NCBI RefSeq assembly: GCF_037975245.1
Contig: NC_092579.1
Location: 12,880,678-12,944,677 of the forward strand
Source of the DNA: Apostichopus japonicus
Taxonomy: Eukaryota; Echinodermata; Holothuroidea; Aspidochirotida; Stichopodidae
DNA length: 64,000 nt
Direction: 5' to 3'
Each line of letters begins with the position of its first letter. Position 1 is the stretch's first letter. The position numbers and the translations under genes are program-made. This document shows positions 5,157 through 54,486 of the stretch, piece after piece. The notes under the pieces are model-generated. The model was not told the DNA's origin. It worked only from the letters and a program-made list of their open reading frames with translations, and ran no database searches.

Positions 5157-8100
5157 ACGTAAGAATTTGGTTATACACCTCCGAAAGTGCTTGATTCTGT
5201 TTAAGAAGAAAACCCTGTATATAGTGATAATGAATGGTGTTGTCTGGACTAGACAGCCATACTACAGTGGCATACACACATACAATATATGTATACATAC
5301 AACATAAGTGTGCATTCATCAGTGCCTAGAGTAAGGCTGTGCATACCAACTTAAGGTTGGTAGCCAAAAATGGCTAAATGCAGACACCATTTGTTTATTC
5401 TGTCCTTTGTACGTAACATTGACAGCTAAAAACAGAGCACTTCCCTCAGGGCCACAGGCTCCACAAAAATCGCATATCGGGCCAGTGTGGAGAAAAGCTG
5501 GCAATCTTTGTTTTCTGTGACAAGTTTTTTTTTTTTCTACTTCACCTCAAGAAAATCTGCTGGACTTTTCAAAATAACTGAATACTAACATTTAAACTAC
5601 TGACCTTTCTTCCACACCTTCATAACAAGTATACTATGTTTTCACGTCTAGACTGTGTAGCAAAATCTAGCTTGGATGTTGGTTTATTGTCGTCTATACA
5701 TTTTCGGGAACCGGGTTGTATTTTTTCGTGAGAAATATTGTACTACACAGGGCCTCATGTCCTGTTAAATCTGGTGTGAAATGTAATTGAGGCTTGTGGT
5801 TCTAATTAAGTAATGTAAAGTGTAATCAATGTTGCTTTAAATGGTGATGCCTTTACAACTGAAGAATTTTACTTGGTGCATGGACGAGGATGGGGCAAGA
5901 TTTTCATTTGGAATTTGGAAGCAAGTTTGTGGTTGTCTTCACATGTTTGGGATTTCCAGTCGTTTTTGGAGGTATTTTGCGTCTTTTTTCTTCTTCTTTC
6001 ATTCGCACAACTCTCATGTGCCCCCATATAAATGTGGTTAGAGGACGGTGAAATGATTAATTCGTTCGCTTCACTTTTCCATAGACATAGATGAGTGTGC
6101 CAGTGATCCCTGTCTGAATGGCGCAACTTGCATTAACCTTGAAGCAAGCTACATTTGTGACTGCGCTCCTGGGTTTGAGGGTACTGAGTGTCAAACAGGT
6201 CAGTAATCTGTTAATTAACCTAATTAACCTAAGAGAGTTAATTAACCTTCGAATCCTTTTCCCCATATGATATTATGATTATTACGAAAATAAATCAATT
6301 TATGTAACATATTTTTAGCTCAAAAGAAGGTTAGGTGTGACAAATAGATAGAAAACTTATTTCACTTTCTTATTTCACTCATTGAAAACTTATTTCACTT
6401 TCGATAATGAGAAAAAAGACAATTAGCAATACGATATTTTGATAGTATTGGAAGCACATGTTTAAACATAGTCAAGCCATTATGCTGATAGAGAAATGGT
6501 GTTGAAATTTTACATTTTCTAAAAAGACATTTAAAAACATTTGATAACACATTCATATTTACAAACTCATGCACACTTGTGTCAAATTGTTTGTCAGACA
6601 AAAAAGATTTAACATTGATGACAAGGAGCTTCAGAGTGGAATCTCTTCAAATATGCTCAACTTATTTTATAATATAAATTTATATAATATAATATCTTTG
6701 TAATACTATATATAAAGTAAGACTGGTTTTCTTACTAGTACATTTTACTGCCAACTTTATAAAATATCAGTAAATTAAGTTCTTACTTTATTACTAAATC
6801 CTTTCATCATATCAGAAGCACTTGTAGGGCATTGATGTTGTGCACATTTTGTTTCATTTAAAGCAGCATTTTGCGTTGGGTCGCTTTTTTCCACTTTTTT
6901 AACATGTGCATCGATTTTTTTACATGTATCAATCATAAAACAGCAATCTAAGATACCATCCAAGTTTCACCCTGCCAAGAGCGTTAATTAGCGAGTAATT
7001 AACGATTTATGTCGATAAATGAGAAGAGTGTCCTCGACAAATTTCACAGTTAAAATTAATCGCATACAATTCCGCCAAACCCACTAGTTTGAATTCAACC
7101 AATCAGAGATGCAGGTTTAGTTATGAGCCGTTGCTAAAAATAGATTCAAGACTTCGCGTTGGTTGTACCAGGGAGTTGTTATGCAACTCCCTGGTACAAC
7201 TGCCATATAGACTGTACACAAATCAAGCGTGGTGTTATATTACGTATCTGTCAATGACGTTCGTAGTGTTTAAATATTCATATTATGGGCGAGGTTTATT
7301 GGGTTCCCAACGGAAAATATCTTGGAGAACAACAAAGTTGAAAGTTGCAATTTTTTCGACTTTTATGCCACCATTTGAAGTAAAATATAAATAGATTAGC
7401 TAGTTATGTATGTCGTTATGGCAAAGTGGAATCAGTGAGGTTGAGAAAAATCATAGAAAAGGACGCAAAATGCTGCTTTAATAACCAAACAAAAATTCAT
7501 TAATTTCAGTACAAACAAACAGCGATCCCTTTTGCCATTTATAGGGAGTTTGTTTTGTCAATATCTGTCTATTTTCTACTATTTTTTCCACCAAAGATAT
7601 TGATGAATGCATGTCTGCACCCTGCTTGAATAATGGAACATGCATGGACCAGGTCAATATGTTCGAATGCATGTGTCCTGACAACTTTACTGGCGCGGTC
7701 TGTGAAGACTGTAAGATACTATATCTGTGAATATTCATAGCTTTATATATAGCATGCTGCTGCTGCCTTTGTAGATATAAGCTCAACTTGTTTGCCTTGC
7801 TTTGGTGCTGGGTAAAGTGTAGTAGATCACTGGTAGCATTGTGAATGAAGCTATGTTACATTTACATGTAGTGTGTTACATGTCATTATATACACTCACA
7901 CTGCATATGCATGTGAGAGCATTATCCACTGCATATACATGTAGTATTAGTAGTAGAGTTCATTTAAGTTCATCATTGATTGAAGTGCATTTTACATGAA
8001 ATTTAAACATTCTGAAAGATCAAACTGTCAAATTCCTAGAGTAATAATAGCTAACTTGACTACGGCTCATCTTCCCCCTCCCCCCACACCCCAAAACAAG

Positions 8101-20183: not shown

Positions 20184-23100
20184 TCACCGATGAGATGGAG
20201 ATGCTCCAGCTGAGGCAGATACGTTGTCTCCTCCACTATTAGATCCCTCCACAACTGGGCTCTGAGAACGGGGCAAACATAAAATAAAAGACAGAAATCA
20301 ATTTAAAGAAACTTAGAAAACAACGAGAGAAATTATTAAGGGGAAAAAAATAATTAAAATTAACAAATTAAATAAAATGAAACAGGGGATTAATCCAATT
20401 AGAAATGAAGTATTCAGTTTCTCCTCCCATGTGGGAACTTTTTATTGTTTCTCCTTGTTTAGATCCTTAGCATTAGGCATGTTATACAGTTCTGTGTTTT
20501 AAAAACAAGTGTGTAATAAGTGAGGCGTTACAGTAATCAGTCGACATCCAGTACTCTCTTCCACACGTCATGATTGAAGTAACGCATTTCACAACAGAAA
20601 ACGAACGACCAAAGGTCTATCCGAAAGAGGTGCGGGGAATCGTCTCGAAATAAAGACAGGGATGAAAATGACTAGAATGAGCCCATTAAATGTTGTGAAT
20701 CCCATTTTGAATTTGTAACTGCAGAAATTAAATCAATTACAGGGGAGTTGGCCCTCAGACTTAGATGTAAGGATATTTATATATATATACATTTTTTTTT
20801 CTTCAGAATGATCGATTTAATATTAACCAAATTCTCCGGCATTTTTAAGATTTACTACTATGTATTTAATTGCAACTGATACCAAACTTAGAGTAACACA
20901 CAATTATAAATTATGCAAAACATAGAAATGGGAAGAACTCATGCTCTCTGGTGACTTCAGATATCTCTTGTTTCACAAGAAAACAAGACTGCCTGGAGGA
21001 TATAATTTTGCTACGGTGTAGAACATGTTGCAAAAGGGTTTGAATTCAAGGCCATGTGTCAAGGTTGCACATGCAAATTACAAAACAAATAATAATAATT
21101 CAAATGCATGTGGTTTACAATCTTTACTTGGGGGGGGGGGGGGGTGGGGGCTCACGAGAGTGAGGTTTTCATTATATTTGAAATGAAATTATCAAAGGAG
21201 TGAGAAAATTAAGGACAAGCCCTTTATATCAAGTCTGTGATTTAAATGGTTAAAATTCTGGTCTTGGACGTTGGATTCTCAAGCCTACTCTGTTGACCTC
21301 ACTAATATAAAACATTCAGCTACGTATCCTTGCAAAGATTGGTTCCAACAGACGGACGGACGAACAGCAGTACTGGTCCTCGAGCGACACAAACAGAACC
21401 GTAACAAAATTGGACACGTGTTTGATTGCACTAAATGGAAAGCATATCAATTGACTTCGGGAAACAAAGAGCCCATATTAGCACAACCCAGCAGCTCAAT
21501 TTAAAACATTAAAACTTGGTTACACTCATTTCCCAAATAACAAACAACAAATCTAAGCATCTGTTTCCAGATTGTCCTCATATGTACAGTTTTTTCCAAC
21601 ATTTAAATTTCTTCCTCTGGGTGTGTTCTGTCATGCATTTCCCCAATTAACTGGCAAGCAAAGCATATGTTGCACCTTCTGACACCAACATCTACCCCCC
21701 CACCCCCCATTCTCCATCCACTCTCCCCCAGCCTCACATTCCACCTCATGCAGTCCATACTGGTTCCTAGTGAAGATGCATTCATTTCATTACATTCAGG
21801 AATAAAGGGATTTCTTGCTGCACAATTTTGTTCCAAATAAAACATATATCACTCAAAAAAATAACTTACAAGTTATTTAAAAATGCAATCAGCAAATAAC
21901 AACACAAAAATATCACATATTTATTAAGAAAATATAACACAAAAATTATATATATATATATGAAAATGAGAGAAACTTGAAAGGAAAAGAAGCTATAATA
22001 TCTTTTAAGAATAACATAATAATATCAAGGTGACCACTGTCAGGTTACAGGTGTGATTAAACATAAATATGTCAACAAGTCCCAACGATGATGAAGAAAT
22101 TAAGAAGGATAAACCAACTGATAATGGGGTGGGGGTGAGTTGGAGGATGAGGGGAGGGAATCATCACATCGAGGAGGGTAAAACCTCACCTCCGTTCATA
22201 CTCACACTGGAATACTGAAATTTGACAAAAGTAAAAGACGCAAGTGCTAATGGTGATAACTGACGACATGTCTAGCACTGAAAAACTGATAGATTTCTTT
22301 CCAAATATCATCCATTACGCTCCCCTTAGTTAGGCTTCCATTCAAGGCTCAGACTTTATCCCGACTGTACAGAATTACTGTCTTTGCTTACATCCCATCG
22401 GTTTGTATTTAAACTAAAGATACATAGTCTGAAAAGCGATAAACAATTTAATAAGACAAAAAAAAAGGGGGGATATTCTTTTTCCTTTCATGTGGAATGG
22501 AAAGTGACCAAATTCAAAACAAGCACTCAAAAGTGAATTAAGATGTATTAAGATGATGAACAAGGATATGCAATACTAGCATCACAACCAGTCTGACGGT
22601 TAGATGAGGCAAGAGTCCATAGCCAAACCTGATAATATCTCCATATCCTGTCCATATTGGGTGAAGATTTAAGAACCAACCCCTTCCCCTGCACCCCCTC
22701 CTCCAACCTTTAAATTAATCTCCCCTGTGCACTCTGTGATGCATGTGGTAGCTTGCATAAGAAGATTTAAGAATCAACCCCTCCCCCCCCCCTCCTCCAA
22801 CCTTTGAATTAATCTTCCCTATGCACTCTGTGATGCATGTGGTAGCTTGCATAAATCCTTACCCCATGTACCTGCTAATATCCAAGTGGCAATCTATATA
22901 TCTTTTGTACATTTCTCGGTATTCAACGTGCAGCATAATCATTCCAACAGTAATTACGTTATCATGGCAACATTGTTATAATAATAATGCATGATTACAA
23001 ACGCAGCTCAAAGATGATATGATACATTCACTCTTCCCTCTTTTCCTAAAACTGCTACCTCAACGTAACTTTCTCTCCTCACTGTATTGAAGTTGTTTAG

Positions 23101-26100
23101 TCTCTTCTTTACTCTTAGAGAATGATGTACTGCTAACATGGCTCTGGTTTATGCTTACCTTCACTTGGATGTCATTCTTCAACATGGCTGACCTCAATAT
23201 GAGAGCCTAGAAGAGGGAAAAGACAATCAATTTAAAAAGGACATTTTTTTTAAATTTTTTTTTTTTAAATCCTGAGGCATGCTCTGAATTTCTGATGTTT
23301 GTTACCTCCATTGCCATGACTGCCGACCTATGCAGTGACATGAATAGTCAGTCATGTGTAAACATCTTGGCAAAAAGTATAAGCAAAATCTGCCAATCCC
23401 ACCTCCCCTTCACCAACTTGTACTGGCCTCAGTATAAGGATCTTATTTCTGTAATTTCAAAAGAGACTATTTGAGGGCTAAGTGAACAAAATTACAGCAT
23501 GAATTAAAATATTAGAGAGGAAAACAGCTTGAGACTAGTTTTACAAGAGCAGTATTACTTTGTATTCATGAATGAGACTTACCACCCATAAAACCACATC
23601 GGAAATCATACATCAAGAAATCAGTCTCTATCATAAGATCCTGTTCTCCAAAAATATTTTATGTTCCCTTTTCTTTTTTTATGCCCCAGTTTAACTTCTT
23701 CCTTAAAGTACCCTAAAGTTAACATGTGATTCAGTACAACTTGACCTTTGACCTCACCTTTGTTCTCCTCTGAAATGCCAACCCCATTGCAAGACTTTTT
23801 TCAAATGTTGAACATCTCTGGTCTACATCCCTGGCATACAAGATCTGCGTACGAAACACATCCAATCATAAAATACCTCGTCGACATGGTCGTGCAAAAT
23901 GTTCAGTACAAGATACTGGCTATCAACGATATAGTACGTGGGTAAACTTAAAGAAAGCTGGTCTCATAAACTTATTGTCATGTGAAATTTCATGGAATAG
24001 AGAGTTCCTAGTGAAGTTACCACTGAATATTTTCTTTCATACACTTGAACCTTATAATAATAATAATACGACTTATAATGCGCACACACCACTCAAAGAA
24101 TGTTCATGGCGCAATTAACAATTAGAAATGATACAAATAATACATAATAATACAAAACAATGACAGAAGAAAAACTTATCTTATTATCCCAGGCATGAAA
24201 ACCACTGATAACATTACATTGGTAGCACACACATACATACATGTGCACACACACACACATGTAAAGCACTTGCTGGACTTGGAATGAGTACTTAAGCTAA
24301 GCTGTTGTGTTTTCTTAATGACAACTCAAGATGCCATTTTGAGAGAGTGTCAATCTACTTTATTGATGGCGCTATTCTGCAATTGCATTGTACTACAATG
24401 GCTAGATAAAACATGATTGATGTTCAGATAGTAATCATTCTTCAATATGATTCGTGTAAAACAACAACTAGGAAAACAACGTCTGGGAATTTTTTTCAGG
24501 AAATACTAACAACTTTGTAAGGCTGCACATGGGGGGTAGGGGGTGGAGGGGGTGATAGAAAGGGAGGATCAGTGATATTCACCAACAGACATTTACCTTG
24601 TTGTGTGAGTCGATTCTAGCATTTATTTGTCCGTCTAATATTAAATGCATCAGTTCATCCTCTAGGGCTGGTACTGTAGTATTGAAAGCAATGGCCATCT
24701 TGTGCATGTCAGCTGATACATAGGGACTGAAATACTGGAAATGTAAGTGAAAGAAAAGTTAAGCTGAGAAGCTCAAAAATCCACCATAACTTACTGTACC
24801 AGTCCCAAACATATTATCAACATGTGTCTAAATGTTATCAAAGTAAGTATTAAATTGGAAGGAAGAATTATACACAAAAATGCTTAGCATAGTCTTTCAG
24901 AAACATACAAAGGCCACAATAGTTGTAAGAAACTTTTCAAGGCCTAGGGTATAGGACCCCTCAACCCCCCCCCCCAAACATTTGTCTGGCCACCAAAATT
25001 GGCCTCCTCCCAAAAGAAGTCTAGCTATGCCCCTGATGAGGTGTCTACCAGTCATTCAATTTGACTGGAGTTCATCTTAAGATTAGCAGTTCAAACAAGC
25101 TAGTAAATCATAGGAGTAATTTGGTCTCAACATCCTAAACTCACTAATTACTACAAGTGCAATTCGTGAAGCTTGTCTTATAGTATTTTGTTCAAGAATC
25201 AGAGGCTAAGTTTCACGGAAATAAGAAAGATCGATTGTCTTATTTTGAAACAGTACTATCAAATAAATTTCTCTACTAAATAATTTTGGTTAAAAACATT
25301 TACATAACTTTCAATAAACATTTAACGAAATATTGGCAAAGCCAGAAGTTTTTTTTGTCCCTTCCATTTGATAAGATACCTGTATAAGAGCTCTGTTCCT
25401 TATCTGTGAGTAGAGGGTAGCAACATGAGTGGCAAGGTACATGTCCAACAGAAGATTGTCCTTGATTTCATCCAACAGCTTCAGGCAAGATGCGTACTTC
25501 GACTGATAAAACATGAAGATGATATCTCGCAGCTGAGGCTCCAGTTCCAGAAACAGCTTGAAAGAGCTGAGGAAAACAAATATCTTTCAGGTGAGAAGAT
25601 AAGATACATAGAGACCCTGAAGATGCAGCAATTAATTAAATAGCCGAGGCTCCAGTTTCAGAAGCAAGTGCTGAGGAGTAAGGACATACATGGTAAGAAG
25701 GGAAGGTCCATGCAGGGAACTATCAGATAACCGAGTCAGTTGTACAAGACATTATTAACAGACATATAGTAAATGAAGTGTCTCTATGGGGTGAACAGGT
25801 CAACTACTTTTTTATTTTCATTTTAGATGGTTTTATTATCATTTCATACACAAGGATAATTTTTCAGAAATAATAACCTGAGATTTCTTTTTCAAAGTTG
25901 CCTCAACAGCTAAGGCTGTTGTCTAACACAACTGAACACAAGACCGAGTGTTGTTCCGTTTTTTTCTTACGTTTTTTTTTTAATGTAAATAAACTTGTTT
26001 TCCTTTGACCAACCTAAGTCAAGTTTGTCTGACAAAAATGGCCAAAGAGCCAGTTCTGTCATGATGAGGAAGACATGCATACTTGATCAGAAAGGTAAGT

Positions 26101-29100
26101 CGATGGTTACAAACATACCTGCTAGATATGATATTTTTCTGCAGTTCTTGTCTTGTGTATGTAGCCAGAGCACAGAGACCACCATAGACAGCTACATTGT
26201 TAGGAGAGAGCAGCTAAAGAAGTAGGAAATAGAAAATAAAAAATCTGACCAAAGTGACTAACAGTGAATGTTCATCTGAATCATTTCTATAATCATTTTT
26301 ATGTCACTAGGACAAAATTTACCTTGGGAGAGTGGGGGGGGAAGAAGGGGTAAGGAATTAAAGAGATCGTTTCCTCCATTCAGTCAAACTTGTTAACCCT
26401 CTTTTATGGTGACTAGGAAGCACAGAGTGTGTGGCAAATGGAGATAGCAGATCTTTTTTATTCCTCAGCAAGATGAGGAAGCTCAGGGTTTGTTCTGCTG
26501 GACCCCCACCCACACCCCACCAGCTAGAAGACTGGAACTGGTGATTCATCTTTCCAATGGCAATCTTACAATGGCATTACCTTCAACATCATTATCTCAT
26601 ACTACTGTAAGAGAAACAGTTGATTTTACCCGCCTCGGGAAAACAGAGAAAACCTTTTACCATTGTATGTCATTTTCTTTGTCTAATAACATGAACACAA
26701 CCTTGAATAAACCATCCTGTTCTTCCAAAGTAGTTCAACTTTTATGAAAAGGACATTTTTGCTTGTCCAATTCCACACATCATCAATTGACTTAAGATCA
26801 GGGATGACTAAAACCAACTTGTCAAGAGCACATTCTTCATTCAATTAACTTACACTAGCAGCTAAACATGGAGTAACTGGCAACCGCCAAAGGCTAAACA
26901 TTCAACTGTGGAGAATCTCCTAAGTGCCATCCATAGTTAGATTTGCTAGTTTACTCTTCGATGCAATTTCGCTTAGCCTTTAGAAATGTTCTTTTGTTTT
27001 AACCATCCAGGGTTCTTTGCTTGTTTATGACATTTGGCTGCAGAAGGCTGAAACAAAAACCAAAAGCTACCAAAATATTGTCTACTCCTTTCAACTCTTA
27101 GTCGTTGTTGGCTTTCATTATTACATCTTCTCGTTGGGTTGGGGTGTGTTCTACGATTTATCAATCATTACCTTTTCAAGTTAATAGATTTCATTTCCCA
27201 TGGACTTGGCTTAAACTTAAGTTTCTTACCTCTGGGAAATCACAGTGATCAAAGGAAGCTTGCAGGAAGTACTTTGCTGCTGGCTTGTATTTCTTTGTTG
27301 CTAATTCTGCGACTCCTGCCGCACATTTTAACTTTGTCACAATCACCATGTTATCCTTTGAATCTTTCTGTAAATGCAAAGAGAGAGAGAGGGCAACGTG
27401 GGTTAAAGAAAGCCACATAATATCAATCAGAACAAAACTAGAATAAGCTTTGTTAGCCACTAGCCCCCTGCTTTTTGCACCCTAGGACTTCGTATACAGA
27501 TCCATGTGGAATATTTTTTCACCAGAAATTAGACCTGCCATTGCTTAATGGCAGAAAGCCTTCAATATAAATGTGCAAAATTTCAACAAAGGCATAAATA
27601 GAGAAAACTTTTAGAGCATGAATTGTCACTAAGTATCCAAGACAGTGAAGACAAACACACTTCTTTCTTTTGATCCTGTACGGAACAAAGCAAACGATTA
27701 ACTTGTACAAATGAAGACTTAAATTGGACCATAATTTTCACCGAGAGGGGGACGCAAGGGGGGGGGTGACAGTTAGATGAGAAAATATGTGAGGGCTTCT
27801 CAAGGATGGATGACACTTCTCTTTAACAAAGGAAAACCTTAACCAATTCTGCAACATGAATGAGAAAACGTTGTCAATAAAATAGTATCCAGATTTTTCT
27901 TTTTCAATTCACGCTGTCCACCCTCCCCCCCACCCCCCCCTCTTCATGTGAGTAGGATTCAAATTTCAGACTGACCTCTGTAAGTTCTGGTGATGACTCT
28001 GCCTTCGTGACATAACTCAAGACGTGAGACCAATTCTTTAAATGTATGCTAACCTGTCGACAGAAATGGTTAAAATGTCAGTACAGTCTAAATGTAACAA
28101 CTCTTAACTTTTATGAAAACAATTCAAATTAAAGAAATTTTAGAAAGGTAAACAGGAATCAGAACATTTTGAAGGAGTGAAGAAGTGTTTGAATAAATGT
28201 TTGTGTTTGAACAAAAATATGGACGCGATTTGAGATTTTCTCAATTAGGTATTGGTTGAATCATCAACAACTGTAGTTTTCTCTGGTAATAGAATTGAAT
28301 ATTATATATAAGAAAAAAAAAAAAAAAAAAAAAAAAAGAATTGAATATTGCTTACAACAATCCATTGAACTTGATAACAAGCTTAAAGTAGTCATGCTGC
28401 TCTAAATGATACAAGTAGATCTAGAGGAAAAGAAATTTCCACTTGATGGTACTGATTTCTTCCTTCCAGTTTAAGACTTACTTTGATAACATTTAGACAC
28501 ATGTTGATAATATGTTTGGGACTGGTACAGTAATCCCTGGCCCTCGAGTAACATTTAAGGGCGTTGCTTAAATCTCCGAGATCAAGGTAATGATCTCCCA
28601 GGTCGTCGTGCCCTCGTCTGTTGATGAAGCAAAAAAACCAGTCTCAAATCAGAAGACATGTTTGCTATATGGCAATATAACATCCTAATTTGTGATGCAT
28701 TATACATGTGACGCATTATACAAATGATGACGTCATTATACGCCTACAAATGATGACGGGGAAAATCGCTGACAAATTTAAGGAACAACTCTGAAAAAAG
28801 CTGAAGAAACACCATCAGAAGAATCTGGAATGATTGCATTTAGGAATACAAGTCAAATGGGCAATGCCAAGTAATCCATCTGGGCCTTCTTTGGTGGTAA
28901 AAAACTTATAATTAACTTTGGCTTTTGGAGTCTTCCTTAGAAGCCACAGTACTTTGGCATAATGAGTAACCAGTTATCACAAACAAGAAAGTAGCAGGGG
29001 AGTGATTTCAAGAGATATTCAGATTTTTAATGTCATGTGTGTGTACTTAAATTGATGGAGGTAAACTGACTGGAAATTTATGAACAATTTTAAAAAGAAT

Positions 29101-32100
29101 CAAGACATTTTTGGCTAGAATGGGATTCAAACCATCCAGACTTAGTTTGTGGCGAATGCTTTAAAGGCCATTTATTTGCTGGATGTCAGTCAGAAGCCAA
29201 AATATGAGCTTGCACACCTTCGATCAAGAGATCACACCCTAAATTGTTTCAGAATGCTGCAGGTAAACATATTTACGACAAATACTCAGAACTGAATTTA
29301 CAAATGTTTTTAAGCTAATCTGCAATGGGCTGTATAAAATCTTCAGTATGGATTCATTGATTAACTATTTTGCACTCCAGGCCTATAAACACATTTATGG
29401 CCACGACACCTCAAACTTCCAACATCTGGACTATACTATATACTTTACCTTATGCTTTCCTTGATTGAGTTAGCTTTGTAATTTTTGAGGTCTGTATCCA
29501 GTTTTTCAAGTTTTAGAGCTGCCTTTTTGTTTGTAGTTTCAATCCAGTTTGTATCCAGACTGGGTATGTTGTGTACCACTCCTGCGACAGCATCTGGTAA
29601 CAGTGAAGAACTAGTCCTGAGGAAGTGGAAGTAGAGGTTAAAGGTCACCTTTAATCTCATATCACTTGACCTGAAAAAGCTGTTTCAATTAATTCAGTTA
29701 AAACAAAAATTAAAACCTTATGTTCGCTTCCCTTCAAAACATGTCTCGGACAAAACCACTAATACAAAACAGTATAAATGTTGGCTATAACACTGAATGG
29801 ACACTGACACACTGTAACATGCCAGTGTTTCACTTTACGGATCCAATTATTTCATTCCGTCTCATACTCTGCATCTTTAGTGTTATAAATAAGTAGAAAC
29901 CAATGATGACATCTAAAATTTCTTCCAAAATGCAATAATGGTTGATCAAAAATCACTTCAACTTTGTTTGTTACTTTAATAGTGAGATGGTTCTGAGCTG
30001 GATGATTATATACACTACTTACACAGCTTCTGCCATTTTTGAATGTATATGTTGATAGGCTTGTGTGTTGTACGTTGTTTGTGTATAGTTGAGAGCCATC
30101 CGTAGAGCTTCCACTCTCAGGGCTGGACATCGTGCAGCTATGAACAGCAGCCTGTTTATCTTGGCAAACCCAGAGTAGCATACTGCATGAGCCTCTAAAT
30201 CCTGTAAATAGAGGTTGGGAGAGAAAGACATATTATATTTAGAACTTAATAATTATTACCTCAAGATTAAAACATTTAAAGATATTTTTAAGTTTCTGGA
30301 AAAGACATTTCAATTACATTCATTGAGGAAGCTCTCACACAAAACAAGTACTGTAACATAGTTCCTTTGCACAGACTATTTTATTGGGTAAGATCAACTA
30401 ATATGAATACTTCAGATTTACTTAATGAATCTGTTATGAAGGGGGTGGGGTATGATGGGGAGAGGAAAGCATATTTCTGGGGATCTGGTGTATTATTATT
30501 ATACTTTATGGGTAATATTAACATCTCTGGACTCTTCATGAAAGTGGTAAAAGGAATACCATCACTATTAAGGAGTTCTTGAACTAGTATCACAGATTTG
30601 TATTATATCTGAGATGTGGAGAGTTAAGACACTCTAAAATGATTTTTAAAAAAAAAGATGGTATGCAAATTTTTCTTACCAGAGTTGGGCTGTCAACAGT
30701 ATAGCTCAATTCTTCTTGGCTCTCTGAGCCCTCTGGTTGTAAATCCAGCTGCATAGGTTCAAGGGAAACCTAAACAAGACAGAAGAACACATTTAATAAA
30801 CTAAACTACTTTTTTACAAGATGTACTATAGGGCTGGGAGCCTGGGAGCATAGCCTTACTTGTCTCTAACCCACAGTAAGCTAGGCAAGACTTTACAGAG
30901 ATGGACCCACACCAAATGAGTAACACCCAGTATTATTAGTAGGATTTTTTAATGTTGCTTCTGCGAGACGGGACGCAACATCTAAAAATTGTTTGCCTCC
31001 TCTCAGAAACATTTGCGTCCCTGCAGTCCTCTATGAAAACATGCACTTTACGACACCTCTACAGGTTCCTGTAGTTATGATGACCCTGACGAATCATTGG
31101 ATTGTGCGCAACGGAAGCCTATAATGTACACAAAAGTAAAACCAAATGATGAAACCTGTAACTAATATCCAACAACAAAATACTGTCAAATTACAAAGCA
31201 GGAAGTTTGCCATAGACTAGTTACCATATATGCTGACCTAGACATAATGCAATGCATACTACGTACTGTACAGTATACAACCCTTGCATAGCAATTGTGA
31301 AGATGTTTTAGGCTATGCATGCGTTGTGAATCAACGTAAAATAACAATGCCTAAAGAGAAAATGTGAGAATAAAAGTAAAGTACTGCACGTTTACGTGAT
31401 TTAATTGAGGCCCTTATATGATGAAAAATATTATTCATATAGATCTCGACGACACAAGAATACGTCTAATAAAAGTCCTAGTACATGACCACAACTTTTA
31501 TGAACCCTTGTCGTAAGTTACCAACTTACCAAATGTTAATAGTTACCCAATGCAACTTTATTAGAATATGTTTCATTCAAGCTTGAACAAATTTCCCCTT
31601 TAACCCAACTACTATAAGCAAGTCTGCCTGAGCCTGGCTAGGTCCGAATTCTTTGCCATTACAGTATGTTGATAACTTTTTACGCAATGTTGATTAATAA
31701 ACTCAAGCTTCAATGGCTACTTTTGACTTTTGAATGTTGTATAAAAAAATTTAAATGAAGCAAGTGGTCAAAGGGACTGTGAAAATTACTTAAGTTTGCA
31801 ATGAAGTTACAACTGTGGAATAAATGCACATTTTTACATAGCAGCTCTCAATGCAGATAGAACAAACATACTGTGAGATGAAAAATCATTTTAACATATC
31901 AGAGATGTTAGCATCCCACAAAATCTGTCTGAACTCATATCATTTTGGTATCAAAACAATGATTCAAAGATATGTGATATTCTTTAAAAAGATTGAACTA
32001 CAACTTTGTACCATTAGCCCTAGTTGTTGAAACGTGTGTTAACAAGGTCTAATGTAATTAACGTAATTTGAGTGCACACATATAATAGCCAATAGCATAA

Positions 32101-33222
32101 GTAGCTTCAGTTGAACAACAAGCTTTGTGTTCATTGAGCATTGTTGATGCAAGAATGTTTGCAGACCATGTGTATTAGTCAATCAAATCATGGGAAATTT
32201 GGAAAAGCATCTTTGACTATTTTAGGTATGAAGATCTTTGCAATGGAAATTTTGTTAGTGCAAACCTAAGCATCACAACAGTTGATTGCTATGATTAATT
32301 TGTTTCAAACAAATTCAATGATCTGTAGGATTGGAAGAAATGTTGGTTCTTTGAGAAGAAGTTGTGGATTTGTTCATTCAAAGATTTTTTTTTGTTTTAA
32401 CATAAGCCTAGTTGTGAGTGTGAGTACTTGGGGTTTCTTTCTCAAAGAAAAAAAAGTTGTGTATGAGGGACACTCAAAATTTTAAGATTTTGCGTCCCTG
32501 GCTAAAATATTGTGTCGCAGACACAGAATTCTGCATTTGTACTAACGCTGCACACTAATAATATATTGAAAGACATTTCTTGAAGTCACACATGTCCAAA
32601 TAATGAGAAGACTTTAAGAATATGGATGGATGGACTTTTAATAGCACGTTTGGTGGGGTGATAACTTGATGCATGGTGCAGAGGTAAGACTTAGGCTAGA
32701 ATGTGCCACAAGACACCAAAATGAAGGCTGCACTGAGTGATAGACACTGTAGATGCTGCTACACAGCTTCAATGAAAAGGGCTAAAATTTGCAAAGTGAA
32801 GATTGAGGAATCAATCTTGTGAGTTGTATCTGGGCGGGAGGGAATAGGACTGTGCCCCGAAAAGTTTCGAAGGCCCTTGACCTCTTACTATATACGCAAG
32901 TTTGACTTCCTATTGCACCACTTGTATTGACTTTAGCATAAAGGATAACATAAGTGCCTGTACCTGGCTGTAGCAAAGTATGTTGTTACTATAACTAAGG
33001 TAGGCTAACCCTAGCCTAACGTCAAGCTTGTCAAAACTTCATTACGTTACATAGCCTAGGCCCAGCCTGAGTTAGGCCAGTCCTAGGGCACATTAGCGTG
33101 ATCGGCTCTTCTTAAGATACGTAAAGAATCCCTAAAGTGTGTATCAACGAAGAGATATTCTTCAATGTAGTAAATTGGAAAATTTAAATGAGCTAACTTA
33201 CCATTCGAATAGGAAGAGGCAT
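20184..33222 (-). CDS. GPS1: COP9 signalosome complex subunit 1 (CSN1)
   Basis: Thirteen coding exons in transcript order, all with AG/GT borders and matching phases: 33222-33202, 30769-30680, 30201-30023, 29616-29449, 28617-28482, 28053-27976, 27367-27230, 26213-26119, 25566-25380, 24734-24597, 23844-23758, 23206-23159, 20261-20184. They sum to 1443 nt, 480 residues, close to vertebrate GPS1 (about 490). The start is M-P-L-P, as in the human protein. The middle has [30 protein letters not shown] and K-Y-A-S-C-L-K. The PCI domain lies roughly at residues 280-410, ending near [13 protein letters not shown]1 is a scaffold of the COP9 signalosome, which removes NEDD8 from cullin-RING ligases. 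The C-terminal tail is short and Ser/Gly-rich, more variable than the core, as usual for the family. The intron before the exon at 24734 contains an inverted copy of part of the exon at 28617-28482. Confidence 0.96.
22672..22854. repeat. tandem duplication of an ~90-bp segment
   Basis: Copy 1 is 22672-22760 and copy 2 is 22761-22854, directly abutting. They share GAAGATTTAAGAA at the start and GATGCATGTGGTAGCTTGCA at the end, with a C-rich, length-variable middle. The duplication lies in the last GPS1 intron and has no coding content. Confidence 0.85.
24054..24175 (-). mobile_element. LINE/SINE 3'-tail remnant
   Basis: Read on the - strand this has the 3' signature of many L2-like LINEs and their SINEs: a segment ending in GCGCATTATAAG and then (ATT)n. 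Only the tail remains, inside a GPS1 intron. The clade is an inference from the tail alone. Confidence 0.5.
24791..24867 (+). repeat. inverted duplicate of the GPS1 exon 5 / donor junction
   Basis: These 77 bases match the reverse complement of 28457-28533 at 75 of 77 positions by eye. The source segment is the last 52 bases of GPS1 coding exon 5, its GTAAGT donor and the first part of intron 5. The copy sits in reverse orientation in the intron between exons 9 and 10 of the same gene, 57 bp before the exon 10 acceptor. In the GPS1 primary transcript the two segments would be complementary. Confidence 0.93.
25641..25682. repeat. partial direct duplicate of a GPS1 exon 9 segment
   Basis: GAGGCTCCAGTTTCAGAA and the following bases resemble the start of GPS1 exon 9 at about 25534-25575 (GAGGCTCCAGTTCCAGAA), with a shortened middle and a shared GCTGAGGA end. 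The copy lies about 75-115 bp upstream, in transcript direction, of the exon's acceptor. It looks like a decayed local duplication of the exon start with its splice acceptor. Confidence 0.6.
28291..28349. mobile_element. poly(A)-only retroinsertion with target-site duplication
   Basis: The 13-bp word AGAATTGAATATT occurs at 28291-28303 and again at 28337-28349. Between them is only ATATATAAG followed by about two dozen A residues. This is the footprint of target-primed reverse transcription in which almost nothing but the poly(A) tail was copied. It lies in GPS1 intron 5. Orientation is + as judged by the A-rich strand. Confidence 0.8.
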
Positions 33223-36258: not shown

Positions 36259-38807
36259 ATGGAAGAAGTTGATCAAGACTTTGGACTTACCTTTGAAAAT
36301 TTTGTGAAGAAGTTTAAACACTGGATGAAAGAACACAGGCTTTCACAACGAATGGTAGCATCAGCTCTACACGTAAGCCAAGGTCATTTGTGTGACCTTC
36401 TGGCACAGGACAAGGTATAATTTTCTTTATCAATTCCAAGAAAGATGTGTCTTTCTTTTCATTTATTGAAATGTTCTTTTGTATGCTATGTTGTTCAGGT
36501 GGTAAAGTTTGAATTTCTTTGGCAGGAAATTAAGGATTCCCAAAAGGAATGGAAATTTTGCAGAAGAATTTGTCTTCCATAATCACTGATATACAGTAGC
36601 TTTTAGATGTTTGTATGATTTATACTCACTGTGTTTATTTTCTGCCCCATATTCAGGCAATATCATGGAAAATGATAACAAAAGAAGGAAGGAAACCATT
36701 TGTACGAATGACAATGTTAATGGAGGATGAGATCACTCTGAAAGCCATTTCTCGCAACCCAAAGCAATTTACTGGTAAGTCAATTTGGAAATAAGTCATT
36801 CAGACCTGTACTATCCATAAATGATTTAAGAATTTTGAAGAATTTTTATAGATTTCATTATTTCTTGCCTTTGCTCTTTTCCATTTGCAATTGGTTTAAA
36901 ATGTAAGGAAAATGTCAGCATTGTATGATTCTTTCTGTGTAGCTTTTTGAATTTAGAACAGAATAACTATGTTAAGCTTTGGGTTGAACACTACTCAAAT
37001 CACTTAACATGTATGAATCTAGTAGGGAGTGGTCTGGAAAGGGGAAAAGGCTTATTTTAAAGCAAACAGATGTTATCTTTGTAGGTCTAATAGAAATGAA
37101 ATTACAAGGAAGTCACTTTGATGATAGAAGTAATTGTACCTTATTGATTCCAGGTAAACGTGAACCAAACAGATGCAGAGAAAAGAAGAAAAACACTTTG
37201 AAGAAAAGTCGTTTTACACCTTACCAGACAAAGACATTAGAAACGGCATACCAAGTCTCAAGTTATCTCACAAAGGAAGCTTACCAAGCACTTGCAGAGA
37301 CAGTAGACTTGAACATTGCACAAGTTAGAACCTGGTTCAACAACAGACGAAAGTTGAGAACTCACGGAAAGCCGCGTGAAAAGACTGTTAAACCAGGTTT
37401 GTCATTGCTCTTTAATTTGTAGTTATTTAGCATTGAAAAAATGACAATATGGTCAAGAGAACTGGAACCATCTGATGTTTTTTATAATTATATTATTCTT
37501 AGACAAATTCAACTTGGTTGCTTTACATTAACCAGGTAACCGAATAAAAATTTAAAGCCAAGGAATCACAGAACTCGGCTTCCTGGTTTTTACCTTGCTC
37601 TACACATCAAATATGGACATGTTTCTTAAGATTAATAGCCAAGAGATGGGAGAAACCTTGCATTGATTTACTGTGAGGAAATTATAGCGGCCCAGGGTTC
37701 AAATCTATAGCCAATCTAACAAGGAGACAAAAGGAAGCAAAACTTGAGGATCATCTCATTATTTAGAGGTCCATTGTTTTTAGTGTTTGATGCAAAAACT
37801 TGGCTTATGCATGCGGTGGTTGTTATCTCCCTACACCTTTTTTACCTATCTCCTTCATCTTCAGAGATAGAATTCCAAGCTGATAATACCTGCAACACAA
37901 TTACAGATATTTTGCAGAATTTTCAAAAAGCAGTTTTCCCTTGAAGCCATTCCTAGATATTCATTTGTTTTTTATTTTCACTCCTTTCATCTCAGGTGAA
38001 AACTTAAAGGGTTCAATTAAGGTGAGAGATGGTAAAATTTGCCCTACTTCTGGATGGTCTCCCAACCAGTTGAGTGATTCGACTACCACGCTGTGTCAAG
38101 AGACGGATGGCTCAGTCACTGCGGCAGTTAGTAGTAATGTCTTCGAATCCCAGCAGTTGGCATCTTTGCTTGAAGAATTCGATGATGCACAGGGAGAGCC
38201 TGATGCCACATGTGGTCCAGATGTTGAATCCATCCATTTGTCCGACGTTGTCGGTCAAAACTTATCGAGAGATTCTTCTTCCCTATCTGAGACAGGTTTG
38301 TCTGCTGCAGCCGAGAATGGCAAAGCTCATGAAACAGAAACAAGTCAATCAGGGATATTTGAAGGATTGGTCATTACCTCAGATCTACCTACGGGTTCAA
38401 AATGTCTTCAGAGACCGCAGTCTCTTTCTGTGCGAGAGGTGGAACAGTTGGTCAGGGCAAGCATGTCCGATAGCAGTCTTCCAGTGGTGAGCCCCTCAAT
38501 GTCTGCAGACAGTGTTTCCGGTGCACCCGATTTGCCTTCCTCGGATACTTCGAAAGACAGCAGAGGAATTGTCGCGATGGAGCAAGATATCGAGTTACGA
38601 TGGAGTTGTAATGTGTCCCAGAAATCTCTCGCTACCAACCAAAGTGATTATGAAGAGGCCCAGCTCAAGTTTTTGAAGCTTGCATATGAAGTTCACAGGT
38701 ATCCCTCTGAGGAAGTGGTGGATGCTTTACATGTGTTAACTTTGATGGGGAAGAAAGAAATAGCAGATTGGTTTTTTGAAGAATCCCTCAGAAGAGTAGT
38801 GTGCTAA
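36259..38807 (+). CDS. CUT-class homeobox transcription factor with an extra degenerate homeodomain
   Basis: Four exons: 36259-36414, 36657-36774, 37154-37396 and 37996-38807. Phases agree and the product is 442 residues. Residues about 12-80 form a single CUT-like domain (L-S-Q-R, V-S-Q-G-H-L-C-D-L-L, then E-G-R-K-P-F-V-R-M). A homeodomain follows at about 104-163 with helix 3 containing W-F-N-N-R-R, so W48, F49, N51 and R53 are kept. Exon 4 encodes a Ser/acid-rich linker and then a C-terminal segment (about 393-439) patterned like another homeodomain, but with W-F-F-E-E-S in place of W-F-x-N-x-R. The protein is probably a sequence-specific nuclear regulator. CUT plus homeodomain is known from Onecut, Cux, SATB and amphioxus Acut-type genes. 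I could not assign it to one. The ATG at 36259 is the first that reads into the CUT domain; further 5' exons are possible. Confidence 0.85.
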
Positions 38808-44747: not shown

Positions 44748-45226
44748 CTGACGTCTCTTAAATGAAAAAATTCTGATGTTTTTTTTTGCCTGTCCTTTTT
44801 TCTTTTCTTTTTTAATTATTTTTACATGTGAAAATATTAGTCTTCTCTTATGATGGATGACTAATGTAAAAACTATTTAATACCTCCTCAATTTTATCAA
44901 AAGGGACCAATGTTACAGGAACATACAATTAAGGTAGTTCTCTGCTGTATCTCCGAAAAGGATTTCATAAAAGTTGACATTCCAACTTCTTTGAGTAAGT
45001 AGCTTTATAACATCTAAAACTGTTTTGAAAATGTGCATTCCCATATCCATTGAAGGCAGCTTGTAGAGCAGTAAGCTTCTCATGTTTTGTTCACACCAAA
45101 GTTACTCTGAGAGTTCCAGTCTTTGAATTGGTACTTGCCTTAATGTAATATTTAAGAGATTCAATTCTATAAAAACATAAATATCAACAGTACTTTCTCC
45201 AGTGTTTCTTATCCTAATCATTTGTA
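44748..45226 (+). other. NUDT1 3' UTR, proximal part
   Basis: No gene and no clear AATAAA were seen between the stop codon and the minisatellite. The next AATAAA on this strand that I noticed (46479-46484) is beyond the minisatellite, so the transcript may run through it. Confidence 0.4.
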
Positions 45227-46272
45227 AACCGAATAGTGTGGAATCTATGCAATTGAATGCATTAATCGTACAGTGTTTACTGGTACAGTAATGGATCAAA
45301 ATCAAATAGTGTTGAATCCATGCAATTGAATGCATTAAACGTACAGTGTTTACTGTTACAGTAATGGATCGAAACCGAATAGTGTTGAATCCATGCAATT
45401 GAATGCATTAATCGTACAGTGTTTACTGGTACAGTAATGGATCAAGATGGAATAGTGTGGAATCCATGCAATTGAATGCATTAATCGGACAGTGTTTACT
45501 GGTACAGTAATGGATCAAAATCAAATAGTGTTGAATCCATGCAATTGAATGCATTAAACGTACAGTGTTTACTGTTACAGTAATGGATCGAAACCGAATA
45601 GTGTGGAATCCATGCAATTGAATGCATTAATCGTACAGTGTTTACTGGTACAGTAATGGATCAAAATCAAATAGTGTTGAATCCATGCAATTGAATGCAT
45701 TAAACGTACAGTGTTTACTGTTACAGTAATGGATCGAAACCGAATAGTGTTGAATCCATGCAATTGAATGCATTAATCGTACAGTGTTTACTGGTACAGT
45801 AATGGATCAAAATCAAATAGTGTTGAATCCATGCAATTGAATGCATTAAACGTACAGTGTTTACTGTTACAGTAATGGATCGAAACCGAATAGTGTTGAA
45901 TCCATGCAATTGAATGCATTAAACGTACAGTGTTTACTGTTACAGTAATGGATCGAAACCGAATAGTGTGGAATCCATGCAATTGAATGCATTAATCGTA
46001 CAGTGTTTACTGGTACAGTAATGGATCAAAATCAAATAGTGTTGAATCCATGCAATTGAATGCATTAAACGTACAGTGTTTACTGTTACAGTAATGGATC
46101 GAAACCGAATAGTGTTGAATCCATGCAATTGAATGCATTAATCGTACAGTGTTTACTGGTACAGTAATGGATCAAGATGGAATAGTGTTGAATCCATGCA
46201 ATTGAATGCATTAAACGTACAGTGTTTACTGTTACAGTAATGGATCGAAACCGAATAGTGTTGAATCCATGT
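45227..46272. repeat. 73-bp minisatellite, about 14 units, with alternating A/B subtypes
   Basis: The word AATAGTGTKGAATCCATG recurs with an exact 73-bp period from 45231 to 46253. Two unit types, one with ATCAAAATCAAATAG and TTAAACGTAC, the other with ATCGAAACCGAATAG and TTAATCGTAC, mostly alternate, giving a 146-bp higher-order repeat with occasional breaks. Each unit contains GCAATTGAATGC and GTACAGTGTTTACTGKTAC, both near-palindromic. The repeated - strand open frames here are an artefact of the repetition. Confidence 0.97.
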
Positions 46273-48763
46273 GATCAAATATACCTATCATATTTAAAAC
46301 ATATACATGCAGTACTACTTTACTCCTTGTAAAAACTAATGGATATATTTGTCAATTAACATGCGATATTTCTAAATGTATGATATTCTTTGGAATGGCA
46401 GAGTGTAACTTAAAACTGAGAATGTGAATTCACCTATGCATGTACATATTTTGGCTTTGAAGCAGTTGTTGTATCAGAAATAAATATTCCATACACAAGA
46501 AACTTTGAAAGTGTGTGTCTGGTATATCTATTGTCTGAAAAGAAAATAGTAGGAATTGACTATTAGAATTCTTTTTCTGATTTCTGCAGTTATCATTACA
46601 AATAAATCAAAGGTCTTGTTTGTGTGAAAATTGGGAACAAACGAATACAAATTTATATTATATCTAATTGTCATAGAGTATGTGAAAGTGAAAGTTATAT
46701 TTCATCAGCCAATGAGAATCTGAAATGTCATAAAGAAGGTTTAGTGAATTATGCAAGCTTGGAGATTATCTGCGTAAACCTGGTAACCAACTAACTATAT
46801 GGGACATTTAATTATTTGAGGTCAAGTATTTTGTTTTTGATTAATTGCTGGCTTTGCGAATATACAGGGGCCCAAGCTATATGCACTGTATATGTGTGTG
46901 TTTTGTTGGGGTGAGGGAGGTGTTCTTCTGGTTGGTACATTCAAGGAAGGAATTCTTTACTTTTTTATGTTACGTCATATCCGGTTAGGATGATCAAAGG
47001 TCATAGGTTAATCAGAGTTCTTTGTCAACTTTGTTATTGGATTCATTCCAAATTGTTGTGAGGGGATACTGTAAGAAAAGATATTGAGACTTTTTCCATG
47101 TTGCTATACTATTCATTTTATTACAAACAGAAAATCTTTTGGCACAAATTTGAAGGCTGTTGTCCCCTCCCCCCCCCCCCCGGCCCTTGCGCAATTATGC
47201 CAGACATTTCAATAATTGATTTGGTCTTTCATGCCATTTTTCGTTCAATTTTCCATAACGTTAAATTTTAAGCTAGAATGGTGTTTTCCCAAAATTTCGT
47301 TTCCTCTCGTCACATAATCTTCCCATTTCACCAGCGAGATCTTAACTTCTAGTCTTTCATATAGCCTACTCCATAACAGCCAAGCATAACAAGCGGTGAT
47401 GATAACCAGAAGCATGTAGTATAAAGTAACGTTGTAGTAGAGACATTCCCCCACAATCGTTAACCTAATTGGAGAGGAGTTTAATTACTCTAATTGTGAT
47501 GTGATATCTTATGTAATAATATATCTGAATATATGCACCTACATGACCAGCAATCATACCCCCCCCCCCCCCCTCTCTCCCCAATATTCAGGTCGTTCCA
47601 TGTTGACATATATGTGATGAGTTCATTCTTGGGGTGTAACTTAATGAATATAACAATTTTCGCTGAAATCATCTCCTCTATTTATAACTGTACAAATCTA
47701 TATTGCAATAAAAACGATATATAATAATAATAATCATAACAAACATTTTATATCCCACCTAACTTAAATCGTGTTCGTTCATATTCATCTTGTTACCGAC
47801 CCTGGCGTAAATGTTCCCAAGTACTGGTCAGAAGTTAGCGTGCTACAGTAAACACAGCTCTAGAGACTAATCTTGACCAATTAACTAGGTACTTTTGGAA
47901 TGGAAATCCTCGTAAGACAGAAGAGGTTTCACTGAATGTGACATTGTGTGTTCCTATTTTGATACTGCAAATGGTTTAGGAATGTGTATCACCGATAAAT
48001 GAATGCCATCGACTCCAAGGTATTCCTTTGGCTTTTAGACTTATCATTGTATCTAACGCAGTACTCGTCACAGATTGGCTACATAAAGCCTCGTACAGTC
48101 TCGGAAACAGCCGTTTAATCTGTCAACTCTGGTTTATGGTAACCGATGACACAACCGATCTTGAAGGAAAGTCGTCCACACATAGTACATGTAGGCTACA
48201 GAAAAGGAAATACAAAACTATCATTTTATTCCGTAAATATTGAGGTGTGGAGGGGAGGGGGTGAGAGGGATGAGTATGAAATAATAAGCTCTGAAGTTAA
48301 TAAACACTGTCTTTTAAATATTGTTTTGTCGGTATTTATCTCCGTTCCGGCATTATGCAGATATAATTTCTTTATGTAAAAATTATTTAAACATTAAATA
48401 TAGTAAAAAAAACCTGTTCAGCACAATTTCCAAGATGGCAACATTTGCTTGTTGACACATGCACTCACGAAATTTCACTATATTTAAAAAAAATATATGT
48501 CTTTGTTATGTTTTGATCTAAAAAAAAACCAGAAAATGTCCAATAATATTGTTCATCAATCATCTTCAGTCACCTGACATTTCTCACGAAAATCATATTG
48601 CAAACCAAGGAATAGAAGCAAAGTCAATCTTCAAACGAATTAAGAAGAAAAGAAGAGATATACAATGGAATAATACTTACACCCTGCAATATGCAGATGA
48701 CACAATGGAATTGAATATGCAAAGGAAGAAACCGTATTGAAATTAAAATTAAAGGATCGAAGT
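46273..48763. other. intergenic DNA, no gene recognised
   Basis: AT-rich with two long C tracts (about 47165-47182 and 47559-47573). A candidate NUDT1 poly(A) signal, AATAAA, is at 46479-46484. The short frames here show no family resemblance. Confidence 0.5.
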
Positions 48764-49586
48764 GTTAAAGCAGCATTTTGCGTTGGGTCGCTTTTTTCCA
48801 CCTTTTTAACATGTGCATCGATTTTTTTAGATGTATCAATCATAAAACAGCAAACTAAGATACCATCCAAGTTTCACCCTGCCAAGAGCGTTAATTAGCG
48901 AGTAATTAACGATTTATGTCGATAACGAGTAAAAGTGTCCTCGACAAAGTTTTCATATCTCCAAATCCACTAGTTTGAATTCCACCAATCAGTGAAAAGT
49001 ATGTTTATTCATGAGCATTTTGCGTTTGGTCGCCGTTTTCTACTTTTTTGACATGTCCATCGAGTTTTTTTACATACATCAAATCACAAAACAGCAAATT
49101 AAGATATAAGCCAAGTTTTTCCCTGCCAAAAACGTTAATTGGCGAGTATTCTACATACAAAATTAATCGCATTCAGTTCCCAAACCCACTAGTTTGAATT
49201 CAACCAATCAGAGATGCAGGTTTCGTTATGAGCCGTTGCTAAAAATAGATTCAAGACTTTGCGTTGGTACAACCAGGGAGTTGTTATGCAACTGCCTGGT
49301 GCAACTGCCATATAGACTGTACACAAATCAAGCGTGGTGTTATATTATGTATCTGTCAATGACGTTCGTAGTGTTTAAATATTCATATTATGGGCGAGGT
49401 TTATTGGGTTCCCAACGGAAAATATCTTGGAGAACAACAAAGTTGAAAGTTGCAATTTTTTCGACTTTTATGCCACCATTTGAAGTAAAATATAAATAGA
49501 TAAGCTAGTTATGTATGTCGTAATGGCATAGTGGAGTCAGTGAGGTTGAGAAAAATCATAGAAAAGGACGCAAAATGCTGCTTTAA
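48764..49586. mobile_element. TTAA-flanked MITE, family A copy 2 (with internal duplication)
   Basis: TTAA is at 48764-48767 and 49583-49586. The element 48768-49582 (815 bp) has the same 15-bp inverted ends (AGCAGCATTTTGCGT) as the copy at 6858-7481. The right 400 bp are almost identical to copy 1. It is about 200 bp longer because the left segment occurs twice: about 48768-48960 and again, diverged, from about 49014. The internal hairpin equivalent to copy 1's 7162-7200 is present near 49266-49304 but has mismatches. Confidence 0.87.
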
Positions 49587-51070
49587 CATTATATTAGGAG
49601 CATTGATTATTATAATTGAATTACAATCTTGGAACATGAAGGAAATATTGAAAGTTGAATTTTTAACGAATATGATCGGTTAAAAATTATGCACTCAAAA
49701 TTTCAGAAAATATTGACAACAACAAAATCTCACTGTTTTTAATTATTATTGTTAATTGGGTATTGTTATGGTTTAAGCGATTTACTCAATAAAATCCATT
49801 TCCAATGGCGGATCGAGTATTTTATAAATGGTGCATTACGGTAGTAAAGACTTAAAGGAGACCTATTATTAGATCTAAATACATGGCTGTGATAATAACT
49901 TCTTTTATGTGAGGTTGAAAAGTAGAAGTATACACCCCCCCCCCCCAACTCACACACACACCATTGGATCCGCGCCTGATTTCTAATATTATAACGATAT
50001 TCAAGAAATTTGTCTTGACTGACCCACTTCCGATTCATCGCCCATTTATCTCTACTATAAACTCGTTCTTTCGAATCTACCAAAAACGTTAACGTTTAAG
50101 GTTTCGCTATTTAAATCATTGAATCAACAACTAATTAACCCAATACCTAACTGCTATTCTCTTACAAGAGGACTTGATATTTGGTTAAATATATGGTTAA
50201 ATAATAAAGAAATAGGTAGAAAAACAGAAATATTTTACCTACCCCCTAAATAGATTGCAAGATCACGTGAAAACATGTCCATCAGATTATAAGGAGAGAA
50301 AAGACAAAAATCAAATATGATATGATATGACAATAAACACATAAACTTTCTCAGTTCATTGAAGAAAAAGTTGTAATATTTAATTCAGAATCATAGAATA
50401 TACAACAGGATAGTGATTGGTTTGTTAGTTTGGAGAGTGTTCAGGATTCTTTAATAATAATAAAATACATTTTATTGCTGACATCTAAAACAAACATTCT
50501 TTTCATTCCTTGCTTAATGACTTGTATATCGGTAGTACATTATAGCATGGAAAAATGGAAAATGCAAAGTAATATTGTTATGAGTACGTGAATACAAGGC
50601 TCTCTCGCCACATACACACAACTTCACATACATACATATACACACCCATACATACCTCAACACAAACTGTCTGCCTATATTACTTAAACATACACAAACT
50701 TGCATTTGTTTTAATTCAAAAGAAAGGCCCCTTGTCATTTTTAACACAAAACATATTTGATAAATAACATACAATTGAAAATATAGTATTATTAATATCC
50801 ATGATTAATTAATCAAGTTAACTGGGTTATACTTACATACTGCTTCACCTGTTAAGTAATTAGACAATAGAAACAGAAAAAAAGACGAGTAATTTGGCGA
50901 GAGCTTTAGCATTACTGTCAAAGAAAATCAATTTTTCATTGTGCATAGGAAAGAAATGTTAACACATATATTATATAATGGTGTAATGTGGAAATATTGG
51001 GACAGGGTATAGATACGGAAAACGAGCAATTTTTCTTCTACTTTTTGTAATATCTACAGACTTTTGATTG
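49587..51070. other. intergenic DNA, no gene recognised
   Basis: AT-rich, with a C tract near 49936-49949 and CA-rich words near 50600-50700. No exon with a recognisable product was found. Confidence 0.5.
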
Positions 51071-51197: not shown

Positions 51198-51439
51198 CGG
51201 TCCAATATTGGAGGGCTACTACGTCACATTTTTTAAAGAAATATATTAGAAACTTATGAAAATTGACCGGATAAAGCTGACGCAACTCACCAACTATTTC
51301 GTCATCGTTTTGAAATCACATGGAAGAAAAAAGGGGAAATTGAAGGTTATTTTACTAATACGAATATATTGCAATGGCAGGAAGAAAACAAGATGAAACA
51401 TATTTTTTTAAATTTTACTTTAAGAAGGATGAGAAGGAG

Positions 51440-52092
51440 AAGGACCTTTCGTGACCTTGGGAGACTCCAGTTAGTTCAGAATGCTGCAGCGAGACTTGTC
51501 ACTAAGATAAAGCGCTATGACCATCAGCACATTACACCAGTTCTCCGAGATTTACATTGGCTACCGATTAGAGACAGGGTCGTTTTCAAAGTCTCGCTTC
51601 TTACATACAAAGCCCTTAACAATCAGGGACCTACTTACATCTCTGAACTTTTATTGCCTTACACACCACCCCGGTTACTTCGTTCTGCATCTCTTGCCCT
51701 ACTGGAGCCCCCCAAGAACACCAACACGTCGTTCTACGGTCACCGAGCCTTTGCAGCAGCAGCCCCAGACATTTGGAACAAGCTCCCGGTTGACATCAGA
51801 ACCGCTCCATCTGTGACTGTTTTTAAGAGCCGTTTAAAAACATATCTTTTTAACAATGACATTTCATAACTTTTTCCATACTTTAACTTTCTTATACCTT
51901 TATCCGCCTTTTTACCATGTTTATTTGTATCTCCTGATCTTTTAGGTGTTTTTTAGTGTTTTTATTCGTTGTTTGATATTTTGCAGTTTTGTAGTTTTGC
52001 ATTTTTCTGTTTCACCTTTTATTGTAAAGCGCTTAGTGGCCTTTGTGATGTTAGGCGCTATATAAATGCTTTATATTATTTTATTATTATAA
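51440..52092 (+). mobile_element. L2/CR1-like LINE, 5'-truncated 3' end
   Basis: The open frame ending at 51869 encodes the last ~140 residues of a non-LTR reverse transcriptase: L-Q-L-V-Q-N-A-A-A-R-L-V, then L-R-D-L-H-W-L-P, T-Y-K-A-L, Y-G-H-R-A-F, W-N-K-L-P, F-K-S-R-L-K-T-Y-L-F. This C-terminal block is shared by L2, CR1 and Rex-type LINEs. The 3' UTR ends with AAGCGCTTAGTGGC, then GCGCTATATAAATGC and an (ATT)n tail at about 52065-52092. The frame is intact to its stop, so the insertion is fairly young, but the 5' part is missing. Confidence 0.88.
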
Positions 52093-54478: not shown

Positions 54479-54486
54479 GGCGCATC
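54479..54486 (-). promoter_or_regulatory. splice acceptor and start-codon context of the RING/TRAF-zf gene
   Basis: After the acceptor the transcript reads GATGCGCCATGGGG. It contains two ATGs in different frames: the first (frame M-R-H-G-V-stop) and the second, which opens the 405-residue protein. The first ATG has a weaker context and would make a five-codon overlapping upstream ORF. Confidence 0.55.

Follow-up and report, generated by a model that had tools for sequence, protein, structure and literature searches.

In the 64-kb stretch of Apostichopus japonicus DNA analysed here (the window), intron 9 of the GPS1/CSN1 gene contains an inverted copy of 77 bp that corresponds to the junction of coding exon 5 and intron 5 of the same gene. 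We consider the copy most likely to be harmless, a short, recent and neutral inverted templated insertion, and give this reading a probability of roughly 0.73.

The inverted pair and its place in GPS1

GPS1/CSN1 is encoded on the minus strand, where 12 coding exons with AG/GT borders can be read from 33222 to 23159. The modelled protein of 455 aa matched COP9 signalosome complex subunit 1 (entry 6r6h) from end to end (phmmer, 713.6 bits, E = 6.6e-214). The match to 6r6h extends only as far as residue 467 of 491, and exon 12 has a donor-like sequence at its end, so a further short C-terminal exon, which was not located, probably exists. Exon 11 of the model ends at 23758, and the donor of exon 5 is GTAAGTCTTA. 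The features of the locus, with the basis for each in brackets, are as follows.

23159–33222, minus strand: coding exons 1–12 of GPS1/CSN1 as modelled; exon 12 ends in donor-like GTAAGC (gene model and homology)
28482–28617, minus strand: GPS1 coding exon 5, 136 nt (gene model, homology)
28457–28533, minus strand: source arm, arm A; made up of the final 52 nt of coding exon 5 (28533–28482) and the first 25 nt of intron 5 (28481–28457), GTAAGT donor included (alignment, gene model)
28054–28481, minus strand: GPS1 intron 5, 428 nt (gene model)
25566–25380, minus strand: GPS1 exon 9 (gene model)
24735–25379, minus strand: GPS1 intron 9, 645 nt, in which the inverted copy lies (gene model)
24791–24867, plus strand: arm B, the inverted copy, within intron 9 and antisense to GPS1, with 75/77 identity and 56 nt between it and exon 10 downstream (alignment)
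24789–24797, minus strand: insertion junction with a chance donor-like ACA/GTAAGT, first intron base 24794; copy and target share TTA (donor score 5.2)
24597–24734, minus strand: GPS1 coding exon 10, 138 nt (gene model)

The first-pass annotation had described 24791–24867 as the reverse complement of 28457–28533 with two differences, and the alignment bears this out: 75 of the 77 positions match, identity is uninterrupted over the first 58 bases, and the match breaks off sharply on either side. Both mismatches (window positions 28475 and 28469) are in intron 5. It had also stated that the copied piece spans the end of exon 5 with its GTAAGT donor and that the copy lies between exons 9 and 10, in agreement with the gene model, which divides the piece into 52 nt of exon and 25 nt of intron and places the copy in the 645-nt intron 9. 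That one arm covers a splice site is unremarkable: GPS1 has 12 modelled donors in ~10 kb, and by simple arithmetic 77 bases picked at random from the gene would contain one of them ~9% of the time.

Comparison of the window with itself by BLAST (E ≤ 1e-5) yielded 25 matches, two of them inverted: the pair described here, with E = 1.4e-30, and a match of 49 bp at 85.7%. An exact search with a low-complexity filter returned nine inverted matches that were 16 bases or longer, of which the longest was the 58-base run and the next 21 bases, whereas the longest inverted matches in five simulated first-order Markov sequences were 16–20 bases long. The 77-base inverted pair is far beyond chance expectation. 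By both searches, the piece is present in only two copies within the window. Bacterial and archaeal contigs contained no match to an exact 30-base pattern from the copied piece, and viral contigs searched with a 285-aa CSN1 stretch gave three pattern matches and no confirmed one, as expected for an animal-like gene; both searches are uninformative about the relatives of such a gene. Within the window, there were no Rfam matches at the gathering score and ARAGORN reported no tRNAs.

The window also holds other repeats and reading frames. A 94-bp tandem duplication (22663–22854) lies just downstream of the modelled GPS1 exons, and a tandem array with a 73-bp unit (14.3 copies, 92% matches) occupies 45226–46271. 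The segments 6858–7481 and 48763–49588 are related (430 bp at 96%), have inverted ends of 19–21 bp and resemble a DNA transposon or MITE present in two copies. A homeodomain ORF is found at 36988–37422 (E = 6.5e-14), and a minus-strand ORF at 53261–54562 carries a RING finger together with a match to a TRAF-type zinc finger that falls short of its cut-off. The ORF at 51267–51869 had no match in Pfam; we take it to resemble the end of a LINE reverse transcriptase.

Origin and age of the copy

The source was kept, as exon 5 and its donor are intact and both copies are in the window. We take intron 9 to be the recipient site because exon 5 is coding. A break or stalled fork in intron 9 would have been repaired, with 77 nt copied in inverted orientation from the exon 5/intron 5 junction 3.6 kb away and joined into the intron. 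Because it is recent and intronic, the insertion would since have been carried as neutral or nearly neutral, and it may still be polymorphic. The divergence between the arms, 2/77 (95% interval 0.3–9%), fits a recent event of this kind. The high identity had earlier been put down to recent origin, conversion or selection; recent origin is retained as the simplest reading of 2/77, whereas conversion and selection are not needed, since both differences would fall in the 25-nt intron part by chance with P about 0.10.

The junctions of the copy lack poly(A), and by eye show neither a terminal inverted repeat nor a target duplication of at least 5 bp. The copy begins with TTA, which also stands immediately to the right of the insertion in the target, and no bases are shared at the other junction; either microhomology of 3 bases or a target duplication of 3 nt would account for the TTA. 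Among 20,000 placements drawn at random within the gene, at least three shared bases occurred at one junction in 12.4% (P = 0.124), at the same junction in 6.3%, and in sum in 20.4%. Microhomology at the insertion is therefore weak and not significant. A transposable element was considered and rejected, given the lack of terminal repeats by eye and the presence of only two copies within the window, even with the TTA as a possible 3-nt target duplication.

Two other origins were weighed against a templated insertion copied from DNA. We see an outside chance that the copy is an assembly or library chimera, in which a read that folded back or was joined wrongly, perhaps one of the other haplotype, ended up in intron 9. 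Allelic differences would give the distribution of mismatches found (both within the intron part, with all 52 exonic bases identical, itself expected by chance at the P value given above), but intron 9 and its surroundings show no run of N, the splice sites of the intron are intact, and an isolated 77-bp insert amid normal intron is an unusual form for a fold-back chimera. An RNA origin is constrained by the 25 nt of intron in the copy, which was thus not made from fully spliced mRNA; a pre-mRNA fragment would have had to enter by reverse transcription, either at a break or through a LINE-type reverse transcriptase, which we regard as improbable. The source is transcribed and spans an exon–intron boundary, and in PMC5110952 templated insertions obtained experimentally are reported to be enriched for transcribed sequence and more than 3-fold fewer with reverse-transcriptase inhibitors. 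Against an RNA template stand the lack of poly(A) and of a target duplication of at least 5 bp at the junctions, and a local source is equally explained by a DNA template 3.6 kb away. The sequence by itself would not separate the two kinds of template.

A short inverted templated insertion, the reading we prefer, has counterparts among described insertions. Class 2 templated sequence insertions, which have end-joining features (PMC5110952; experimental 73–414 bp), are similar in that a short segment is copied, the donor is left intact, and neither poly(A) nor a LINE-type target duplication is present. They differ in that their sources are distant, whereas the GPS1 source is in the same gene at 3.6 kb. 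Germline inverted templated insertions have been linked to template switching (PMC8421209), and the inverted template on the same chromosome, the short length and the intronic position of the GPS1 copy are all like those of inverted templated insertions/MMBIR (PMC8421209, PMC7954356). The software range in PMC8421209 was within 100 bp, whereas the GPS1 template is 3.6 kb away and its microhomology is not significant. The source distance thus lies between those of the two sets and, like the weak microhomology and the strength of the computed duplex, speaks against our reading. Short-range switches in great apes are enriched in introns, with a median copied length of 12 and a maximum of 128 (PMC7954356). 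In a human long-read call set, dispersed duplications accounted for 773 of 13,850 annotated insertions (PMC7640490).

Pairing and splicing of the GPS1 transcript

A long, near-perfect duplex over the exon 5 donor, with exons 6–9 looped out, had been proposed at the outset, and the computed energies are in line with this: −118.9 kcal/mol for the whole duplex and −85.1 kcal/mol for its 52-nt exon part alone. In the minimum-energy fold of the 4021-nt pre-mRNA from exon 5 to exon 10 (−1086.3 kcal/mol), a free fold at the 4-kb scale that ignores kinetics and proteins, 74 of the 77 positions pair between the arms. The corresponding 3944-nt version without the copy folded at −1004.6 kcal/mol, and 55 of the 77 source positions paired elsewhere. 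By these calculations, formation of the duplex in the unspliced GPS1 transcript would be thermodynamically possible in principle.

Pairs of this type are common. In the pre-mRNAs of 49 organisms, inverted duplicates of >96% identity number ~0.78 million, against 1.07 million direct ones (PMC7006430). The GPS1 pair is like the inverted duplicates of that source that are able to form dsRNA, being >40 bp long, >96% identical and in an unspliced transcript; those pairs are mostly due to intronic sequence, whereas one GPS1 arm is on a coding exon/donor junction. The complementary arms enclose exons 6–9, as in pairing-driven circular RNA or looped-out exons (PMC7404189, PMC4479058), but unlike in pairing-driven circular RNA systems the upstream arm is mostly exon. 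Among the matches listed in a literature search on CSN1/GPS1, circular RNA, introns and inverted repeats, the feature was not reported.

The order of splicing bears on how long the full duplex could exist. Intron 5 is 428 nt long, and more than 3 kb of transcript separates its 3′ splice site from the copy downstream, so in normal splicing intron 5 would probably be removed first, and intron 9 would be discarded later together with the copy. After removal of intron 5, 52 nt of complementarity between exon 5 and intron 9 are left until intron 9 goes.

The pair might also serve as a cis-acting RNA element, whose duplex would mask the exon 5 donor or loop out exons 6–9 and lead to skipping, an exon 6–9 circular RNA or A-to-I editing. 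We consider such a regulatory role unlikely. The strength of the computed duplex and the fold that joins the arms at nearly all positions argue for it, as do the inverted repeats that looped out exons in a minigene (PMC7404189), but exon makes up 52 of the 77 nt of arm A, and transcription reaches the copy only after a further 3.6 kb, by which point the 428-nt intron 5 may already have been spliced. Moreover, exons 6–9 total 498 nt in frame, and their loss would take 166 codons from a conserved protein. For mammals, PMC4479058 states that inverted repeats are not sufficient for circular RNA. Circular RNA formed by pairing is described as relying on complementarity between the introns on either side of the exons that circularise (PMC6769675); here, arm B is wholly within intron 9, and arm A has only 25 of its 77 nt in intron 5 (23 of 25 matching), the other 52 being exon. 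A more specific form of the idea is that a one-step mutation, by placing an antisense exon 5 splice site in a later intron, created a self-complementary switch: late removal of intron 5 would allow exon 5 to pair with intron 9, hiding the donor and yielding edited, exon 6–9-skipped or circular GPS1 RNA. We hold this to be very improbable.

The insertion also produced splice-like motifs. The donor-like site at the junction scored 5.2, compared with 5.1–10.9 for the 12 modelled GPS1 donors, on a score that was derived from the 12 donors and 11 acceptors of GPS1 itself and hence favours those. It is the best of the 33 GT sites in intron 9, and on the minus strand of the window 198 of 3512 GT sites score at least as high. 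An acceptor-like CATTTAG on the sense strand of the copy ranks below the top 8 among the 36 AG sites of intron 9, which caps its score at 1.5, against 9.1–13.8 for the true acceptors. A cryptic exon of 33 nt (24827–24795), stop-free in the frame read, was judged unlikely, with a donor at the bottom of the range and a weak acceptor. Within 24789–24850, the copy reads AUACUUAC on the sense strand, which resembles the 5′ end of U1 RNA simply because the copy is antisense to a donor.

If splicing of GPS1 is altered, the locus would offer a natural single-step test of a self-complementary exon/donor arm, with its partner 3.6 kb off, in competition with splicing. If the insertion is neutral, as we consider most likely, it would be a clear example of a small repair or template-switch event seeding potential double-stranded RNA in a gene.
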